A stretch of DNA of 64,000 nucleotides from assembly GCF_015207005.2 (NCBI RefSeq), contig NZ_JADEXS020000001.1, forward strand, positions 2,852,001-2,916,000, written 5' to 3'. Below are positions 24,259 to 44,710 of the stretch, piece by piece. Made by a program: the position numbers and the translations under genes. Source of the DNA: Desmonostoc muscorum LEGE 12446. GTDB taxonomy: Bacteria; Cyanobacteriota; Cyanobacteriia; Cyanobacteriales; Nostocaceae. Within the stretch, counting starts at the first letter, position 1. Each line of letters opens with the position of its first letter. The notes beneath the pieces were generated by a model. The model was not told where the DNA came from. It was given only the letters and a program-made list of their open reading frames with translations, and made no database searches.

Positions 24259-24548
24259 CGTGAGTTCGATTGAACCTCTCCCCAACCCCTCTCCGTCTCG
24301 GAGAGGGGCTTTAGTATCCTGAGTTGGGCAGGAAAATTTAGGGTTTTTAAGCCAATACAGTTCAGTTAAGCTTTTTTCTCTCCCCCTACTTCCCCTGCTT
24401 CCCCTGCCTCCCCTGCCTGCTTTAACAAATAAATTTCCTTAACTGAACCGTATTGGTTTTTAAGCCTCTCGTCGCTTGCCTAATGGCAGGCTAACGCCAA
24501 CGGGGAGAGGAATGGAAGCGGGGTTCTTTGGAATCTGTCGAACTCACG
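24259..24548. mobile_element. Miniature element with 9-bp target duplication, host of a second element
   Basis: Terminal inverted repeats CGTGAGTTCGA (24259-24269) and TCGAACTCACG (24538-24548) are perfect over 11 bases. They are flanked on both sides by the direct repeat TTAACCAAA (24250-24258 and 24549-24557), which reads as a 9-bp target-site duplication. The interior holds CCTCTCCCCAACCCCTCTCC with its partner, and a complete second element at 24352-24456. There is no ORF, so it was moved in trans if at all. Confidence 0.8.
24352..24456. mobile_element. Nested 105-bp miniature element with 8-bp target duplication
   Basis: The left end CCAATACAGTTCAGTTAAG and right end CTTAACTGAACCGTATTGG are inverted repeats with one mismatch in 19. 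The direct repeat TTTTTAAG flanks both sides (24344-24351 and 24457-24464). The interior is pyrimidine-rich (CTTCCCCTGC repeats). The same ends and an 8-bp duplication occur around the element at 41440-43591. Confidence 0.85.
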
Positions 24549-32000: not shown

Positions 32001-33114
32001 CACTGGTCAAGGCGTTCTCGTAGCTGTGGTAGATAGCGGAGTAGACTACAATCACCCTGATTTGAGCGCTAATATCTGGAAGAATAGCAAGGAAATTGCT
32101 GGCAATGGCAAAGATGATGACGGTAATGGTTACATTGATGATGTCTACGGCTGGAATTTTGTCGGCAACAACAACAATACTTTAGATGGCAGTGGTCATG
32201 GCACTCACGTTGCTGGTACTATTGCAGCGGTGAAAAATAGCTTTGGTGTTACAGGTATTGCCTATAATGCCAAAATTATGCCAGTGAGAGTTTTTGATGA
32301 TGGTCAAAATGGGTCAGGTTCTGATAAAGCGATCGCAAATGGTATTCGTTATGCAGTCAATAACGGAGCGCTTGTCATTAATCTCAGCTTAGGCGGACCT
32401 TCTCCTACCAGTGAGATACTCTCAGCTATTCAATATGCTGTCAGCAAAGGGGCAATTGTCGTCTCGGCAGCAGGTAATGAAAGTGAGTTAGCACCAGCCT
32501 ATCCCGCTCGATATGCTGACAAGTGGGGAATTGCTGTGGGAGCAGTCAATTATAATAGAACATTGGCCGACTTTTCGCACCGTGCTGGAACAACTACACT
32601 GGCATACGTTACAGCTCCAGGAGCATACAAGGACGACTATAGAGGTATCTATTCGACATATCCTGGTAATCAATATAAAGATATGCCAGGGACTTCTATG
32701 GCGGCTCCTCACGTTGCGGGTGTAGTTGCACTGATGCTTAGTGCTAAGAAAGGTCTGACTGATGCTCAAGTGCGTCAGATTCTCACAACAACTTCAGGAA
32801 ATGGTGTGAAATCATCCAGTTCTAGCTTAAGTACCAATTCTATTAGTAGTGATAGCAATGCGAAACTATCTAGCTTGAGCCTCAGTTCTACAAGTCGGAT
32901 CAACTCAGTCATTTCTAGTTATCCAACTGAGAAGAAAGTTGCAACTTCTAATTTCAGTCCAAGCTCTAACAAACAGAGTGAGATTGCAAATTTTGAAAAT
33001 CCTGACAAATTCGCCGATCAACTTTTCTGGGAAAAGTCAGTGAAATTCTATGACAGTCAGGATGGTGGCGAAAATAGTCTTGCTGAATATGATTGGGAAC
33101 AGCTATGGGATTAG
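29065..33114 (+). CDS. Subtilisin-like (S8) protease with seven CARDB-type repeats
   Basis: About 1349 residues from ATG 29065; the GTG at 29053 overlaps the GAGG site. It is a paralogue of the preceding protease. The N-terminal SGVNTFFRASDRTTYTPGG is shared, and seven diverged CARDB-like domains follow (PDLIVRNASNPTSAAAGSTI, PDLILQNAVAPSSASVGSTI and so on). NSTTGYGLINAAAAVAKALG comes at about 930. The catalytic triad is Asp990 (AVVDSGVD), His1045 (GHGTHVAG) and Ser1211 (GTSMAAPHVAG). Unlike the first protease it has a C-terminal tail of about 110 residues, first Ser/Thr/Asn-rich and then acidic, ending YDWEQLWD. The last codons and stop overlap an IS630-like palindrome. A homologous 165-base leader lies upstream of both genes. 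Confidence 0.92.
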   Translation: MLLTKDRNPINETSGIKSSYLSSQISNIFDDANNYSASDLSGVNTFFRASDRTTYTPGGIDTPQNEYVVKSNNSNKSDSQEFALAALQPDLIVRNASNPTSAAAGSTIQLNYEILNQGSGSADYSYTKFYLSKDLTLGNSDDVFLNYDYVTSLLSNYYSQESTTLTIGDSVTAGTYYLVYQADGYNYVAESNESNNAIAGTINITKPDLILQNAVAPSSASVGSTISVSYQVKNQGNANAGYSYTNFYLSQDLTLDSNDKYIGYDYVADIAAGISRSESTTLTIGSTINAGNYYLIYHGDGDGNVSESNENNNAIGKAIAINPAGKPDLIVQNASAPSSASVSSTIQLSYQVKNQGVGSAIASTTNFYLSKDNAYSTDDVLLGSDAVNTIAAGATSSETVSLAIANTIATGNYYLLYRADGDSKIAETNESNNVVSKAITITKADLIIQNAVAPSSVSVGGTINISYQVKNQDVGSAIASTTKFYLSKDNAYSTDDVLLGSDGVNSIAAGATSSETASLAIANTIAAGNYYLLYRADADNKIAESNETNNVVSKAIAINGPKPDLIIQNVSSPGLVDPGSLITLNYQLANQGTATAGTSTTKFYLSKDAALSNDDTLLGSDQNYLYNGLKPGYYSSESYYVSISSSTTNGNYYLLFQADANNELTETNENNNVTAKAITITAPDLVIQNASAPASASIGTTIQVSYQVKNQGNGTAGIFSTYFYLSKDQSLSNDDAYLGSDLINNFDLAPGSVSSESTSFSLPSKLTVGNYYLLYKVDGSSLERESNENNNLVAKAITITAPDLVIVNTSAPTSAAIGTKLEFTYEIKNQGNGNAGSSKTGYSLSRDTILGNDDDISIGYDSVAIPSLAPSATFSNSISWTIDTIIAPGEYYLMFKADGLGNVAESNESNNAIYNTQAITLTPANGGGFNSTTGYGLINAAAAVAKALGQSTFADVPDLGGNNWGADAIKAPEVWAKGYTGQGVLVAVVDSGVDYNHPDLSANIWKNSKEIAGNGKDDDGNGYIDDVYGWNFVGNNNNTLDGSGHGTHVAGTIAAVKNSFGVTGIAYNAKIMPVRVFDDGQNGSGSDKAIANGIRYAVNNGALVINLSLGGPSPTSEILSAIQYAVSKGAIVVSAAGNESELAPAYPARYADKWGIAVGAVNYNRTLADFSHRAGTTTLAYVTAPGAYKDDYRGIYSTYPGNQYKDMPGTSMAAPHVAGVVALMLSAKKGLTDAQVRQILTTTSGNGVKSSSSSLSTNSISSDSNAKLSSLSLSSTSRINSVISSYPTEKKVATSNFSPSSNKQSEIANFENPDKFADQLFWEKSVKFYDSQDGGENSLAEYDWEQLWD

Positions 33115-33147
33115 TATTTGATTTATAAATCAAATATGATTCCTATA
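33104..33147. mobile_element. 44-base palindromic IS630-like end remnant overlapping a stop codon
   Basis: Left half TATGGGATTAGTATTTGATT and right half, read inward, TATAGGAATCATATTTGATT. Both match the ends of the IS630-type element at 41992-43147 (TATAGGACTAGTATTTGATT and TATAGGAATCATATTTGATT), including TA at the borders. The protease stop TAG (33112-33114) lies inside the left half. It looks like two element ends with the middle lost, or a minimal MITE. Confidence 0.65.
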
Positions 33148-37863: not shown

Positions 37864-38766
37864 CTATTCAGAGACTTTGTTGCTAGCTCTATTGGCACGC
37901 GCCTCAGCTGAAGCCATGACCTCAGCGAAATTCTCTAGCACTTCGCCAGGGAAATTTTCCAAAACTCTGGTAGAAAGAGCAACTCGCCCTTTACCTTCAT
38001 CCAAGTCAATAATTACAGCTTTAATTGGTTGACCAATTTGAAATACCTTTTCCAGAGATTCAATGAATTTTTGGCTTACTTGCTTGATATGAAGTAAAGC
38101 GCTCATGCCATCTAAATCGACGAAAATACCAAAAGGCTTGATACCAGTGACTTTTCCTTCTACCAATTGACCTAGTTCTAACAAACTAAAGTTGCTAGAA
38201 CGAGTTGCTAAACGTTGGGAAAGAATAAGTTTATTGGTGTTTTTATTAATTTCCAAAAAGCCCACAGTCAGAGTTTGACCTTTGAGTGCTTCTAAATTAT
38301 CACGCTCCGCCAAGTGCGATCGCGGAATAAATCCCCGCAAAGACAGAACCTCCACTGTGACACCACCTTTATTCACACCCATAACCCGTACTTGGACAGT
38401 CTGGGTATTTTCCTGCATTTGAGCCAATCTTTCCCAGATATGCTGAATTTCCAACTGCTTTCGAGAAAGAGTAACTTGACCTTCTGCATCCTGATCTCGG
38501 ATAATCAAAAACTCCAGTTCCTCTTGCAATGGCAGCACCTCTGATAAATCGGTCACTGCTCTCAAAGAAGCCTCATCGCGCGGTAGAAAAGCTGACGATT
38601 TGCCACCAATATCGACATAAGCTCCATCATGGTCAAATTGGAACACTTTGCCACGTACAACCTGTCCCTTTTGAAACTGGTAGTCGTGTTTTTCTAGTGC
38701 TTTGGCAAAATCGTCCATTGTAAACGGCGAATTAGCTGTTTGAGAAAGTTTCGATTCGGAATTCAT
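37864..38766 (-). CDS. Short ribosomal protein S1 homologue with three S1 domains (Rps1B type)
   Basis: A 300-residue RNA-binding protein. Three S1 OB-fold domains are visible: GQVVRGKVFQFDHDGAYVDI (about 34-105), VQVRVMGVNKGGVTVEVLSL (about 122-190) and GQLVEGKVTGIKPFGIFVDL (about 202-270). A short polar tail follows. Cyanobacteria often have two S1-like proteins; this length fits the shorter one, reported to help translation initiation without Shine-Dalgarno dependence. It is soluble. The dienelactone hydrolase gene lies upstream in the same direction, 129 bases away with a repeat between. Confidence 0.88.
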   Translation of the reverse strand: MNSESKLSQTANSPFTMDDFAKALEKHDYQFQKGQVVRGKVFQFDHDGAYVDIGGKSSAFLPRDEASLRAVTDLSEVLPLQEELEFLIIRDQDAEGQVTLSRKQLEIQHIWERLAQMQENTQTVQVRVMGVNKGGVTVEVLSLRGFIPRSHLAERDNLEALKGQTLTVGFLEINKNTNKLILSQRLATRSSNFSLLELGQLVEGKVTGIKPFGIFVDLDGMSALLHIKQVSQKFIESLEKVFQIGQPIKAVIIDLDEGKGRVALSTRVLENFPGEVLENFAEVMASAEARANRASNKVSE

Positions 38767-38895
38767 GACTTTTGAAGATTAATTTTTATTTGAGCTGATG
38801 CCACTGGAGTTTAGATTGTGATTTGTCATTTGTCCAAAGTCCAATTGCTAATGACCAATGACTAATGACCAATGACAAACTTGGCTGTATGGACT

Positions 38896-39639
38896 TCAGT
38901 TCAGTTGACTAAAGAGTTGTTGCACCTGCTCCCAAGCATCAGCAGCAGCTTTAGGATTATAACTGCCACGATGGTCACAGAAAAATCCGTGGTCAGCTCC
39001 ATCGTAGCGAAACAGACGATGAGGAATTTTATATTTTTCTAACTCTGCTTCAATCTCATCTACTTGTTCGGCTGGGATGCTAGCATCTTCTTTACCAAAC
39101 AAGGCATAGAGAGTGCCTGTGATTTCTCTGGTGTGGGTGAGTGTGGCAGCACCACCTCCCGGTGTGCGGGTGGTAATTCCAGCACCGTAGAAGGAAGCCG
39201 TAGCTTGAATATCTGGTAGGGTGGCTGCAAGATAGGCGACATGACCACCAAAGCAGAAACCAATACAGCCAAAGCCATCTTTTTTAACCTTGGGGAGGTT
39301 TTTAAGGTAGTCAATTGCTAGTTGAATATCGCTCAATAACTCTGATGCTTGAGTCTGTTCCCAAGCGTATTTTTTGCCAACTTGAATATCTTCTGGGGTA
39401 TAACCGGTTTCAAAACCAGGGGCAATACGTTCAAAAAGTGCAGGTGCGATCGCTACATATCCAAGTCTGGCAATCCGTTCTGTAACTTCCCGAATGTGAA
39501 CGTTGACACCGAAAATCTCCTGCAACACCACGATTCCTGGATAAGAACCAGATTCTTTTGGTTCTGCCAGATAAGCAGACACTTGAATATTATCTTGCAA
39601 AAGTTTAACCGTTGTGGTATTTATTACTTGCTCTGTCAT
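38896..39639 (-). CDS. Dienelactone hydrolase family protein
   Basis: A 247-residue alpha/beta hydrolase. The nucleophile motif is GCIGFCFGGHVAYLA (Cys in place of Ser, as in dienelactone hydrolases). The acid lies in LFGKEDASIP and the catalytic His in YDGADHGFFCD. PGIVVLQEIFGVNVHIREVT is the conserved oxyanion and substrate region. Length matches the family (about 235-250). It has no signal peptide, so it is cytoplasmic. The natural substrate in cyanobacteria is unknown; carboxymethylenebutenolidase activity is only the family reference. Confidence 0.9.
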   Translation of the reverse strand: MTEQVINTTTVKLLQDNIQVSAYLAEPKESGSYPGIVVLQEIFGVNVHIREVTERIARLGYVAIAPALFERIAPGFETGYTPEDIQVGKKYAWEQTQASELLSDIQLAIDYLKNLPKVKKDGFGCIGFCFGGHVAYLAATLPDIQATASFYGAGITTRTPGGGAATLTHTREITGTLYALFGKEDASIPAEQVDEIEAELEKYKIPHRLFRYDGADHGFFCDHRGSYNPKAAADAWEQVQQLFSQLN

Positions 39640-39819
39640 AATAATTTTTACCAGTGTTATGTAATTATGAGTGTATTTCTTTGATATAACTATGCCAGTA
39701 TGTCTAAGTTATTTCCAATAAAATTATCAACTACCATAGTGAGCGCATTCAAAGTTTGTATCAGAAAAATTTCATATGTAAATCAAATATTTGACATCTA
39801 AATGCAGCCGATCGCCAAA

Positions 39820-39893
39820 GGAGTGCTGACTTCAAAGTGCTAAGTACTCAAGTACGAAACTAGCACTCAGCACTCAATACTCAGCACCCAGTA
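39820..39893. repeat. CACTCA-type dispersed repeat upstream of the GntR gene
   Basis: GTGCTGACTTCAAAGTGCTA is followed by AGCACTCAGCACTCAATACT and CAGCACCC, an imperfect inverted repeat of the same family as the in-frame insertion at 21077-21147. It ends a few bases before the AGGAGG of the next gene, so it probably forms part of that gene's leader. Confidence 0.75.
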
Positions 39894-39909
39894 TTCAGGA
39901 GGTTTGGTG

Positions 39910-40893
39910 ATGATTCAATTCCGTATTCAGCCAGACAGCGAAATTCCCGCATCAACTCAGCTGTTTAATCAAATCCGGTTTGCCATCGCTTCCCGGCAAT
40001 ATCCACCTGGTTACAAATTGCCAAGTACACGGGCGCTAGCAATGCAAACTGGGTTACACCGTAACACCATCAGCAAAGTTTACCGTCAACTCGAAGAAGA
40101 CGGATTTGTAGAAAGTCTGGCTGGTTCCGGAATTTATGTGCGTGCCCAAGGCCACGAGGGCGGTAGCAGGCTACAATCACCAATTCTCAAACAACATCCC
40201 AATGCATATCAAATTGTCCAACAAGCACTAGATGAACTACTCTCCCAAGGTTGTTCGCTTAGTCAAGCTAGAGAGTTATTTTTAGCGGAAATTGACTGGC
40301 GCTTGCGTTGTAGTGCGCGGGTATTAGTTGCAGTTCCATCTCATGACATGGGTGCTGGTGAGTTGATGGTGTATGAATTAGAGCGATCGCTGAAAATACC
40401 AATACAATTGGTAGCAATGGAAGAATTAACAGCTGTGCTAGATAAAACTACTTCTGCCACAGTGGTCACAAGTCGGTATTTTATCAGTGATGTGGAAGCG
40501 ATCGCTGCTCCAAAAGCTGCACGGGTGATTCCCCTGGATATCTACGACTACAGCAAAGAACTCAACTTCTTGAAAACCCTGCCAAAAGAAAACTGTGTGG
40601 GCATCGTTAGCCTCAGTTCTGGAATTGCCCGCGCGGCGGAAGTTATTCTCCACGGTTTGCGGGGAGATGAACTACTAATCATGACTTCTCAACCAAAAGA
40701 TGGTTATAAACTTCAAGCAATGGTCAAGCGGGCTGAGGTGATTATTAGTGACCAAGCCAGTTTTGCAGCTGTGCAAGCAGCCGTGCAAGCAGCGGATGAA
40801 GATATTATTCGTCCGCCAAAGCTGATTAAAGTTGATAATTATATCGGCGCTAACTCGATTAACTTGCTAAAACGAGAACTCGGTTTGAGTTAA
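39910..40893 (+). CDS. GntR-family transcriptional regulator
   Basis: About 327 residues from ATG 39910, which has AGGAGG at 39897-39902. Residues about 1-75 form a GntR winged helix-turn-helix: IPASTQLFNQIRFAIASRQY, PGYKLPSTRALAMQTGLHRN, TISKVYRQLEEDGFVESLAG. The C-terminal 240 residues are not an aminotransferase or UTRA type that I recognise. They contain LVAVPSHDMGAGELMVYELE and a Rossmann-like VGIVSLSSGIARAAEVILHG, so a cyanobacterial-type effector or dimer domain is likely. It is probably a DNA-binding regulator; its targets are unknown. A dispersed repeat lies in its leader. Confidence 0.88.
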   Translation: MIQFRIQPDSEIPASTQLFNQIRFAIASRQYPPGYKLPSTRALAMQTGLHRNTISKVYRQLEEDGFVESLAGSGIYVRAQGHEGGSRLQSPILKQHPNAYQIVQQALDELLSQGCSLSQARELFLAEIDWRLRCSARVLVAVPSHDMGAGELMVYELERSLKIPIQLVAMEELTAVLDKTTSATVVTSRYFISDVEAIAAPKAARVIPLDIYDYSKELNFLKTLPKENCVGIVSLSSGIARAAEVILHGLRGDELLIMTSQPKDGYKLQAMVKRAEVIISDQASFAAVQAAVQAADEDIIRPPKLIKVDNYIGANSINLLKRELGLS

Positions 40894-40945
40894 TCCCAAG
40901 GTTGTGATTTCGATAGAACACACGTAGGGGCGTACACATTTGTGA

Positions 40946-41326
40946 TTAAATCTGTATAGCAATACCTTCGCCTTCTATGGTCGAGGTGGTTTTACTCTCG
41001 AAGAACCTGGGTATGCTTCTGGTACACCAGATGAATCTTACTGCATTGGCAGCAATAAAGAAACGCCAGATATTGTGATTGAAATCATCGTTACTAGTGG
41101 CACTATTAACCGCAAGGAGTTATTCAAACCCAAGAAAGTACCTGAAATTGGATTTTGGAAATCTGACCAAATAAAGATATTTCGGTTAAATGCGGCTGGC
41201 GAGTATGAAGAAGTAAACCGTAGTGGTTTCTTACCGAATTTAGACCCAGCTTTATTGCTGAAATATATCGCCCATCCTGACCAGTACGATGCTATTGCCG
41301 AATTTGTGGACGCTATCCGAAAATAA
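40946..41326 (+). pseudogene. 5'-truncated Uma2/DUF820 endonuclease-like gene
   Basis: An open frame from 40946 to the TAA at 41324-41326 encodes the C-terminal two thirds of a Uma2-type protein: FYGRGGFTLEEPGYASGTPD, ETPDIVIEIIVTSG, KVPEIGFWKSDQIKIFRL and an intact-looking end. The N-terminal part and start codon are missing. Upstream frames hold a half-repeat (GTAGGGGCGTACA near 40924), so the gene was cut at that point. An internal ATG at 41075 could at most give an 83-residue fragment. It lies beside the nested mobile-element locus. Confidence 0.75.
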
Positions 41327-41878
41327 ACAGGAGTCAGAATTCAGAATTCAGAATTCTGAATTCTCTACCCATAAAAGAATAGAGTTTTAATCAGGAATAA
41401 TTTATCAACTTTTTCGCCCGCAAGGAGCAAGGTTTTAAACCAATACAGTTCAGTATGAGCAACAAAAGCCTCATGTAGAGACGCGATTCATCGCGTCTGA
41501 AAGACCAATATTCTACCCCACATTCCGCACCCTAACTGTCACAAAGGGGTTATTACTGAGTATTGCCTCTAGAATGAGAGTAAAAGAATACTTTATTGTT
41601 TATGTAGGGAGATTATTGACCTAGCCTAAATAATATTTATATTCTCAATAAGCAGCAATAATTATTTATGTTTTCTCGATAGATAAAAACTTATGATTGT
41701 TACGAAAATATTTGTATTTAGCTTATGAGATGTCGATTAAAAACCATTATAATTTCTAACTATTAATTTTTATTAATAGTCTCTATCACAAATAAGTTTT
41801 CGATATAGTCTGATTACAATTTATAATAGTAGTGACAATTCTCTGGCAGAAAATTTAGAATATATTCTCTTTCTGAAG

Positions 41879-41991
41879 TCAAATTTGATATTGATATTTC
41901 ATTGCTTTGACCACATGTCCTGGGCTGATTTTCTCTCCTGGCTCTTGACCGATTAATTCATTAATAATTTCCACCAAGCCTATAGAGTCTA
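41879..41991 (-). pseudogene. DUF4277 transposase remnant, second part
   Basis: Read leftward this encodes DSIGLVEIINELIGQEPGEK then ISPGHVVKAM, the conserved start of DUF4277 (IS1634-like) transposases, followed by KYQYQI and a stop where the family normally continues. It joins in frame to the part at 43148-43213 across the IS630 insertion. The remainder of the transposase is deleted. Confidence 0.85.
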
Positions 41992-41996
41992 TAGGA

Positions 41997-42584
41997 CTAG
42001 TATTTGATTTCTGAAAAAGCTCCGTACATCTGTAAAGTGTCAAAATCAAAGTTAGTGTGTCGGAGAAACCACTCAAACATCCATTTGAGATGAGAGAACG
42101 AAGGAATCAAAGCACAGAAACGCCGCACCCAGGTTTTAGCTTGTAACCAAATATCCTCAATTGGATTTTGTGATGGGCAATTAGGAGCGAAGCGAACGCA
42201 ATGAATTTTCCACTGGTCTGGAGACAAACCTTGGTTTATCTCTCCTAAAAAGTTTTGAACCAGATGTGAACGATGGTAAGAAGCACCATCCCAAAAAAGC
42301 AGTAATCGTTGGTTGGGAGACTGGTCTAATAAATAACGTAAATAATCAATTGTATTGTCTGAATTGCCAGCATTGTAAGCTTTAAGAAGCAACTTACCAT
42401 CGAGATAATCAACCGCCCCGTAGTATGTCTGCTTCTCTCGTTCGTTAACGATGCCAATTGCTATTTCTTGGTCAGTTTTTCCCCAGACATAACCAGTTAC
42501 GTCTCCCCATAACAGATGGCACTCATCTATTAGTAATACTCTCAGTCTTCCTTCTTCTATCTCCTCTCTATTGCTGTCCAACAA
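41997..42584 (-). CDS. IS630 transposase, C-terminal (DDE) part
   Basis: A 195-residue frame carrying the catalytic core: VLLIDECHLLWGDVTGYVWG (first Asp), LLLFWDGASYHRSHLVQNFL (second Asp) and FAPNCPSQNPIEDIWLQAKT (final acidic residue). The nominal ATG is probably not used. The frame continues upstream into the run of nine A's shared with the N-terminal frame, and a -1 slip there would give a fused protein reading AAKKKQIEKLLDSNREE. The stop TAG at 41997-41999 lies inside the terminal repeat. Both halves look undamaged. Confidence 0.88.
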   Translation of the reverse strand: MLDSNREEIEEGRLRVLLIDECHLLWGDVTGYVWGKTDQEIAIGIVNEREKQTYYGAVDYLDGKLLLKAYNAGNSDNTIDYLRYLLDQSPNQRLLLFWDGASYHRSHLVQNFLGEINQGLSPDQWKIHCVRFAPNCPSQNPIEDIWLQAKTWVRRFCALIPSFSHLKWMFEWFLRHTNFDFDTLQMYGAFSEIKY

Positions 42585-43075
42585 TTTTTCAATCTGTTTT
42601 TTTTTGCAGCTACAGCCTCAATGTCCGCCTTTGGGTTTAAGCCAGTAGTTTTTTTCCAACTAATTCCCGCCGCGTCAAATAAATCATAATAACTCCGTTT
42701 CGATTCGTAGATGACATCATATTCAAAAGCCAATTTGTATTCCAGTTCACCAAGCTCCCAAATCTCCTTAGTTTGCAACCAACTTAATACTTCTTGTTGC
42801 TGTTCATCGCTCAGGTAACTCTTTCTGCCTTTATAATTTAAGCGCAATCCGCAAATTCCATATTCCTTATAAGCTTGCTTCCAGCTTGTTATTGAACCAA
42901 CAGAGACATCTAAAATTGTTTGAATTTCCTCATACTTGTAGCCTTGATAAACCAGTTTCACTGCCAAAGCTTTTCTCACCTCACGGGCATCCGGGCGATT
43001 ATCTATAAATTCTTGTAGTTCTGCGTTAGCGAAGCTCACCGAAGGTATCGCAGGTTGTAGATGCTGCTCTATCAT
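42557..43075 (-). CDS. IS630 transposase, N-terminal (helix-turn-helix) part
   Basis: A 172-residue frame with DNA-binding helix-turn-helix segments: AREVRKALAVKLVYQGYKYE, EIQTILDVSVGSITSWKQAY and GLRLNYKGRKSYLSDEQQQE. It overlaps the C-terminal frame by 28 bases. At 42597-42605 (plus strand) lie nine T's, i.e. AAAAAAAAA in the mRNA, a slippery run that lets ribosomes shift -1 into the catalytic frame. Without the shift it ends at a TAG 14 codons later (KNRLKNCWTAIERR). Confidence 0.88.
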   Translation of the reverse strand: MIEQHLQPAIPSVSFANAELQEFIDNRPDAREVRKALAVKLVYQGYKYEEIQTILDVSVGSITSWKQAYKEYGICGLRLNYKGRKSYLSDEQQQEVLSWLQTKEIWELGELEYKLAFEYDVIYESKRSYYDLFDAAGISWKKTTGLNPKADIEAVAAKKNRLKNCWTAIERR

Positions 43076-43147
43076 TGTTCGCTCTTAGACAGATATCTCT
43101 CTCCGTATTATCTCGTACACTTTTTCAGAAATCAAATATGATTCCTA

Positions 43148-43213
43148 TATAATCCCTGCTATTATACCCAAATGGTCTAGATTTTGAATTTCGATTTCTT
43201 TCAGATTAGACAT
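43148..43213 (-). pseudogene. DUF4277 transposase remnant, first part
   Basis: Starting at the ATG at 43213 and read leftward it encodes MSNLKEIEIQNLDHLGIIAG and the following Ile-Ile, the characteristic DUF4277 start. The IS630 element interrupts it at the TA. The restored 58-codon frame continues at 41991. Confidence 0.85.
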
Positions 43214-43666
43214 AGCGATAGAACAGAGTAAACAACATCTGTTCAAATTTTCATATTTTATGTACCTAAAAATCTATTTACTCTTCCGTCAGGTTAGTTC
43301 TGACCATTTCTCGACCAACTAATCATAAGTAATCATCATTTATACTATGTCTGCTGGTTAGATAATTGTGTATCAATAAGTATCAAAAAATATAAGTATT
43401 TCCGCGATCGCTCTTTGGAGAAAAACTTTTTGGTTTACTGCTAATTATTCTTATTAAGTTTTAAAATACTACTCCTCGTTATAGTTCATAAGTACTATTT
43501 AGTGAAAATTAGTTAAGTACTAATGAACTTGTGACAGTTAGGGTGCGGAATGTGGGTTCTACGCCAATAACCCTTAACCCAAGCGTATTGGGTTTTAAAC
43601 CAATATTCACCAATCCAGTCGTACAGAATCACTCTGAATTCTGACTCCTGAATTCTTCTCCAGAAA

Positions 43667-44587
43667 TTAACTTATTTGTGGCTCTGGTGTGTTAATTTGC
43701 AAAAACTCTTGTACTCGCCGCAAATAAGTTGATGCATCTTCCAACATCGGAAAATGCGCTGTATTAGGAATCATTACAAACTGTACTTTGTCACTTAATG
43801 CTGCTGCTTGACGCCCCATTTCGGCTGGAATAATCTTGTCATACTCCCCCGCCACCAGTAGAGTTGGTACTGTCAGGTTCGCAAATTCTTGGGGCATCAA
43901 TTCAGCTTGTGCCTTAGAGACTGAAGTAAAAATTGTACCTAATGCTGCATCATAATCGGCTTCGAGAAAATCTTGCAAAAAAGCCTGTCGTTCGGATTTT
44001 GGTATGGTACTATACAGAAATCTAGCCATAAACATCCGGTCAACAAATGGTATTTTACTTAACCATTTGGGACGGAATTTAACTACATAACCACCGAATT
44101 TATGAAAGGCAGTAAATGCTTTTTCATCGTACTCAAAAACACCGCTACAAGTTAAAATTCCTCGTTCCACCCGTTGGGGATAGCGGTTAAAAAATAAAGT
44201 AGCAACAGAAGCACCCATTGAATGGGCATGGATATAAACACGCTGAATATGCAGCCCATCTAGCAAAGCTGCCAAATCATCAGCGTATTCTTCTAATTCG
44301 TAGGTTAGCTCTTTGATTGCTTCTGATTTTTCCTGAAGTGACTGGGACTCGGCAACAGATTCACTCGCTTGGACTATGGTTGGCTTGCCACGGGAACGCC
44401 CAAATCCCCGCATATCGTAGAGTAAACAATCAAATTGCTCAGATAAAGCATCAGCGGTACTTTGCCAATATCTAGCGGAACCAGCCCAACCATGAATGAA
44501 AACCATCACTGGTTTTACTAAAGAACCAGATGGTTTTTTCACCCACTCGTAGTAATGCTCAACCCCACGAACATTAATGTAAGGCAT
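43667..44587 (-). CDS. Alpha/beta-hydrolase fold protein
   Basis: A 306-residue hydrolase beginning MPYINVRGVEHYYEWVKKP. The oxyanion loop is MVFIHGWAGSARYWQ and the nucleophile elbow is IHAHSMGASVATLFF (Ser). The acid lies in LLVAGEYDKIIPAEM (Asp) and the catalytic His in IPNTAHFPMLED. A helical cap of about 90 residues lies between strands 6 and 7. It has no signal peptide. An insertion after GFGRSRGKP (about 70-95) is rich in Ser, Glu and Gln. The substrate cannot be predicted. It lies downstream of clpX in the same direction, separated by a tandem ATGACTA repeat. Confidence 0.88.
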   Translation of the reverse strand: MPYINVRGVEHYYEWVKKPSGSLVKPVMVFIHGWAGSARYWQSTADALSEQFDCLLYDMRGFGRSRGKPTIVQASESVAESQSLQEKSEAIKELTYELEEYADDLAALLDGLHIQRVYIHAHSMGASVATLFFNRYPQRVERGILTCSGVFEYDEKAFTAFHKFGGYVVKFRPKWLSKIPFVDRMFMARFLYSTIPKSERQAFLQDFLEADYDAALGTIFTSVSKAQAELMPQEFANLTVPTLLVAGEYDKIIPAEMGRQAAALSDKVQFVMIPNTAHFPMLEDASTYLRRVQEFLQINTPEPQIS

Positions 44588-44595
44588 TTGTCTTT

Positions 44596-44710
44596 TGTCC
44601 TTTGTCCTTCGTCATTAGTCACTTGTCCTGGGTACATTGTTATTATTCCTTAGTTTTTGACTAATGAATAATGACCAATGACTAATGACTAATGACTAAT
44701 GACTAATGAC
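44596..44710. repeat. Tandem AATGACTAATGACT repeats
   Basis: CTTTTGTCCTTTGTCC is followed by five or more units of TGACTAATGAC up to the clpX stop. The same dispersed family occurs at 38840-38878 and 50573-50625. Confidence 0.8.

Follow-up and report, generated by a model that had tools for sequence, protein, structure and literature searches.

How three mobile elements came to lie one within another, and in which order they arrived, is the question raised by a locus in the window, that is, the whole stretch of 64,000 nucleotides of DNA analysed here. Inspection of the sequence reveals a nest of three layers, in which an IS630-family element is present inside an IS1634-family derivative and this derivative, in turn, inside a MITE. 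The nest is neighboured on one side by a plus-strand frame of 83 aa (41075-41326), for which no Pfam match was found, and on the other side by a minus-strand alpha/beta hydrolase gene (43667-44587, PF00561). An earlier note had described three nested elements, each with its own target duplication, and had interpreted them as three successive insertions. The sequences it gave are present at the places it named and the interpretation is essentially right, with details corrected below. Our analysis suggests that the nest almost certainly results from three ordinary successive transpositions, in which the outer MITE was followed by the middle IS1634-family derivative and then by the inner IS630-family element.

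The outermost layer consists of the following features:
41431-41440, no strand: left outer target duplication GGTTTTAAAC, 10 bp, present as a single copy in the related genome G010
41441-43590, no strand: outer MITE with its contents, ends CAATAC/GTATTG
41441-41516 and 43563-43590, no strand: own sequence of the outer MITE, 104 bp, nest contents left out
43591-43600, no strand: right outer target duplication GGTTTTAAAC, 10 bp (sequence)

Without the middle element, the outer element measures 104 bp, which corresponds to 106 in the numbering of the earlier note, where one extra base is included at each end. The outer duplication had been given there as 8 bp; setting the ends as CAATAC/GTATTG corrects it to the 10-bp GGTTTTAAAC, and the 8-bp version was rejected because 10 bp fits the family better (for example in copies L081 and L082). 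Flanks of the family were compared for 35 paired elements, namely those in the fetched loci of the window genome. They are equal at 10/10 bases in 17 pairs and at 9/10 in 8 more (25/35 at 9 or 10), a count of matching flanks that is lowered by about four evident mispairings among the 35. In the control, where flanks of different elements were paired, 69 of 20000 draws reached at least 9/10 equal bases. In the window MITE itself, only 11 of 20 bases are the same at the two ends.

A second member of the same end family lies elsewhere in the window:
24353-24455, no strand: MITE of the same end family with an unrelated interior, GTTTTTAAGC flanks on both sides

This element, previously taken (as 24352-24456) for a sister copy of the window MITE, has only the ends in common with it, and the true sisters are located elsewhere in the genome. 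With 20 bp dropped from each end, 31 of the 64 interior positions agree, whereas 200 shuffled interiors gave 33.7 agreements on average and 40 at most; the element was rejected as a sister because its interior is no more alike than shuffled sequence. The agreement of 106 with 105 bases after removal of the middle element is therefore weak evidence. MITEs having the interior of the window copy together with an unbroken TTCTACG, or a sequence near it, are present at C1:3148940 and C1:1184489, among others, and the interior of the former is the same as that of the window MITE at 58/64 positions (20 bp per end left out). There is also a second MITE of the outer family that holds a different element inside (L025, G000:C1:4828686-4829113). 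As judged by eye, the element within it is bounded by inverted repeats of ~20 bp that start with CCCTCTTCTGTCAC, and TTAG flanks it at both ends.

The middle layer consists of the following features:
41511-41516, no strand: left middle target duplication TTCTAC, single in the related genomes G014 and G001
41517-43556, minus strand: middle element, 2040 bp including the IS630-family element, 28-bp perfect inverted repeats
41879-41991, minus strand: 3' part of a DUF4277 fragment, to the stop codon (PF14104 at 25.1 bits for this piece, slightly under the cut-off of 25.4)
43148-43213, minus strand: 5' part of the DUF4277 fragment with ATG start, cut off by the IS630-family element
43557-43562, no strand: right middle target duplication TTCTAC (sequence)

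The perfect 28-base inverted repeats of this element, with TTCTAC on both sides, are as previously described. Without the IS630-family element it measures 882 bp, and in this form the DUF4277 frame is continuous, in agreement with the earlier statement that removing the IS630 rejoins it; the frame is an N-terminal fragment only, with or without the IS630. Complete relatives of the middle element are 2194-2238 bp in length, and in the two that were scanned the transposases consist of 555-566 aa and reach 400 and 390 bits with NF033559, for which the cut-off is 100. One complete element, in genome G002, is 2205 bp long; its 28-bp ends are those of the window element, it encodes an IS1634-family transposase of 555 aa, and GTGAAT is duplicated at its flanks. 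Another, L045 (C1:4509984) in the window genome, is complete and more distant, with 2238 bp, a 566-aa transposase, similar ends and a duplicated TTGTAG. Compared with the complete G002 relative, ~1.4 kb is missing from the window element, all of it inside the transposase gene. Consequently, the window element could not make a complete transposase, the IS630 insertion aside, and cannot move by itself. Judged from its sequence, the middle element is a derivative of the IS1634 family and not a complete member. Among solved structures, none showed a sequence match to the IS1634 transposase at E 0.001.

Copies with both 28-bp repeats are present in the window genome at the window locus, at C1:8353026 (882 bp), at C1:8424587 (1016 bp) and at C1:8590070 (1802 bp), and the repeat search found one end each at C2:389079 and C1:4509984. 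The copy at C1:8353026 lacks the IS630 and differs from the window element, inner element omitted, at one base of 882. Across the genus, 27 of 53 genomes contain the end pattern of this family. In the copy at C1:8590070-8591871 (L043), the DUF4277 gene is replaced by a different, apparently frameshifted DDE_Tnp_1 transposase gene, which is situated between the outer 387 and 221 bases of the middle family.

The innermost layer consists of the following features:
41990-41991, no strand: left inner TA duplication (sequence)
41992-43147, minus strand: inner IS630-family element, 1156 bp, TA on both sides
41997-42584, minus strand: second transposase frame, 195 aa, DDE_3 (profile match)
42557-43075, minus strand: first transposase frame, 172 aa, helix-turn-helix part (profile match)
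43148-43149, no strand: right inner TA duplication (sequence)

An IS630-type element with TA duplicated, which had been reported inside the middle element, is thus present there. Seven copies in the window genome, including that of the window, are identical over 1156 bp, and all seven are located between TA and TA in different surroundings. The two transposase frames overlap, and the coding strand has a run of A close to the overlap. With 102.8 bits, the second frame passes the NF033545 cut-off of 100, and it scores 57.5 bits against DDE_3, while the first, with 79.9 bits, stays under the IS630 cut-off because it is only half of the transposase. Palindromes of ~40 bp, made of two IS630-family ends without an interior, are present in the window at about 33104-33147; similar end-only palindromes at G000 C1:7753685, C1:4101916 and C2:532944 are suggested by matches on both strands.

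The order of the insertions can be read from sites at which the elements are absent. A match to the hydrolase gene with at least 86% identity is present in 52/53 genomes of the genus, G044 having only a distant one. Of these loci, 12 were aligned to the window; nine do not align across the stretch of the nest and are uninformative here. In G010, the site reads through a single GGTTTTAAAC with no MITE. In G014, which carries the same species label, the MITE is present with a single TTCTAC and without the middle element; window positions 38001-41516 and 43557-44636 align there to stretches that overlap by six bases, TTCTAC. G001 likewise has the MITE, a single TTCTAC and no middle element; the sequence to the left of its MITE differs, and the left duplication reads GTTTTTAAAC. 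The search for empty sites in relatives, which had been proposed as a check, therefore succeeded at this locus for two layers: G010 has the empty site of the outer element, G014 and G001 have that of the middle one, and the duplicated sequence is single in each of them. An empty IS630 site was seen only elsewhere in the window genome, in a second copy of the middle element, and not at the window locus. Other copies, the second check proposed, were found for all three layers. With the uninserted states of all three layers at hand, the insertion order is outer, middle, inner; its last step rests on that second copy and not on the window locus itself. Upstream of the nest, G010 has ~460 extra bases at window position 40972-40973, just before the 83-aa frame at 41075-41326. 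This frame may be a cut-down gene, with the remainder in the ~460 bases of G010.

It could be argued that the MITE and the middle element are ancient at this place and that the relatives appearing uninserted have lost them by exact removal. A tree of two flanking genes in 13 genomes groups the window genome (G000) with G014 (support 0.978) and does not separate G001 from G010 (support 0.005); G010 hence does not clearly branch outside the MITE-carrying strains, as such a reading would allow. However, in each of G010, G014 and G001 the removal would have had to spare precisely one copy of the duplication, and the difference of a single base between the middle element and a copy elsewhere in the window genome points to a recent arrival. 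We consider exact removal very improbable. Still less weight can be given to chance repeats or an assembly artefact, a reading for which we found no support and which is practically negligible. Other copies and an uninserted state exist for every layer. The 18-base pattern of the outer family, with at most one mismatch, is present at 193 places in the 9.6-Mb genome and at 0 when read backwards, its 14-base form gives 161 places against 10 read backwards, and the pattern of the middle element gives 10 matches against 0.

Three separate insertions thus remain our reading of the nest. In the first step, a 104-bp MITE with IS4-type ends would have inserted at GGTTTTAAAC. In the second, the transposase of a complete relative very likely brought the 882-bp IS1634-family deletion derivative into the MITE, where its insertion at TTCTAC would have left the 6-bp duplication. 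In the third, a complete IS630-family element would have inserted at a TA within the DUF4277 fragment of the middle element. We infer the identity of the transposase that moved each element, and likewise that the third step took place at the window locus after the arrival of the middle element. For these last two steps it has to be considered that the middle element entered the MITE already carrying the IS630, so that the 2040-bp compound moved as one unit. No strain among the 12 loci shows the 882-bp element alone at this place, and the order of the last two steps is consequently not fixed locally. However, the only other 882-bp copy found in the window genome is without the IS630, and the other six IS630 copies lack the flanks of the window copy, so no donor of such a compound is seen. 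Arrival as a compound therefore appears quite unlikely, and independent arrival of the IS630-family element is preferred.

The agent of the first step was very likely an IS4-family transposase acting in trans, as the common ends and the length of the duplication suggest, and its staggered cut would give the 10-bp duplication. A search with PF13006 gave matches in 42/53 genomes. In eight of the 30 PF13006 loci returned, the ends CAATACGGTTCAGTTA/TAACTGAACCGTATTG are present 1471-1514 bp apart, and 10/10 flanking bases are duplicated in five of these eight end pairs (L240, L241, L250, L251 and L257); L243, L245 and L253 are without 10/10 duplicated flanks. L251, with 1488 bp and 10/10 flanking bases duplicated, is a complete element with the ends of the MITE, and its IS4-family transposase of 414 aa scores 190.5 bits against NF033592 (cut-off 115) and 80.3 bits against PF13006. 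Complete IS4-family elements with the ends of the MITE are found in related Nostoc genomes and not in the window genome, where the sole Nterm_IS4 match, L244 (G000:C1:8141822 onwards), is broken. L244 has the left end of the MITE, and its frame runs into a DUF4277-like frame after ~148 codons. Because this only match is broken, one would have to suppose that the helper of the MITE has disappeared in the meantime or did its work elsewhere. PF01609 has 110 matches in the window genome, and inspection of 30 loci and ten further stretches (nine other matches and one on C2) gave no candidate with the right ends for an IS4-type partner. A MITE family with 193 end matches is in this way linked to IS4-family elements that are complete in relatives, and the possible loss of a helper by a MITE family can be tested here.

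In the middle family, the exact 6-bp duplication is present in 6 of 18 complete copies and absent in 12 (L041-L043 and nine from relatives). The 18 comprise the window copy, L041-L043, L045 and a further 13 in relatives; of 18 stretches retrieved in the search, five had no end pair and were left out. The missing duplications in most other copies cut against a simple reading of this family. In three relatives (G014, G010 and G001), the left flank of L041 (C1:8353026-8353907) runs on without a break into different sequence, and in three (G014, G026 and G001) different sequence stands before its right flank. The left flank of L043 likewise runs on without a break into different sequence in G002, G026 and G010, and different sequence stands before its right flank in two relatives (G014 and G005). 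The sequence that follows the left flank of L041 in G014 is located 259 kb away in the window genome (L299, C1:8612077), where TTTAT is still present before it but no element. Of the other three stretches searched for in the window genome, two were not found and one was found only as a 74% repeat. For L042, matches of the flanks in relatives were too weak or lacking. From these comparisons, L041 and L043 sit at rearrangement junctions, joining sequences that are unlinked in the relatives, which would explain their missing duplications.

Two other accounts of L041-L043 were tried and rejected. Very long direct repeats have been reported for IS1634 and IS1549 in PMC2266710, and no repeated flanks are present within 1 kb on either side of these copies. 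Duplications swapped among the three would leave an equal 6-base pair among their flanks, and none was seen by eye. It is possible, though rather doubtful, that IS1634-type deletion derivatives are frequent joints of chromosome rearrangement in Nostoc and mark much rearrangement near 8.35-8.6 Mb; the role as a joint is seen in two of the three other complete copies of the window genome, and its generality is a guess. If true, elements unable to make a complete transposase would still mark chromosome rearrangement in Nostoc.

The nest is a clean and checkable case of bacterial three-layer nesting, with uninserted sites at the same locus for two layers and the third seen in another copy. A limited literature search for nested insertions with MITEs or in Nostoc found no published account that matches it. 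Insertion of IS elements into the transposase genes of other IS elements is already described for Anabaena sp. 90 in section 7 of PMC3542288, and the nest adds a well-supported new case of ordinary transposon nesting, which is of a known kind and no new system. The inner element resembles the IS630 family in its DDE_3 transposase, TA duplication and length of about 1.2 kb, and nothing about it differs notably, its transposase being encoded in two overlapping frames. The middle element has CCCACATT at both ends, in agreement with the ends C-----YT given for the IS1634 family in Table 1 of PMC2266710, and the TTCTAC of the window copy falls within the 5-6 bp duplications of that family. In these ends, the 6-bp duplication and the remains of DUF4277 it is like members such as ISAsp5 of Anabaena sp. 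90 (PMC3542288, Table 2). However, it lacks the complete transposase and the size of 1500-2000 bp of that family, having 882 bp with ~1.4 kb of the transposase gene gone.

For subgroup IS4 of the IS4 family, Table 1 of PMC2266710 gives ends -AATR--------WTW and duplications of 10-13 bp. The outer MITE is like this subgroup in its -AATR ends, AATR being present at both, and in the 10-bp duplication, GGTTTTAAAC occurring twice. WTW is present at the right end, whereas the left end reads TAT and departs from the published signature at one position; copy L081 has AATR and WTW at both ends. Beyond the first ~18 bases, as judged by eye, the interior of the MITE is unlike that of the complete IS4-family element. 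In being short, non-coding and present in many copies, it is similar to the MITEs of 77-541 bp that section 7 of PMC3542288 describes in the filamentous cyanobacterium Anabaena sp. 90.
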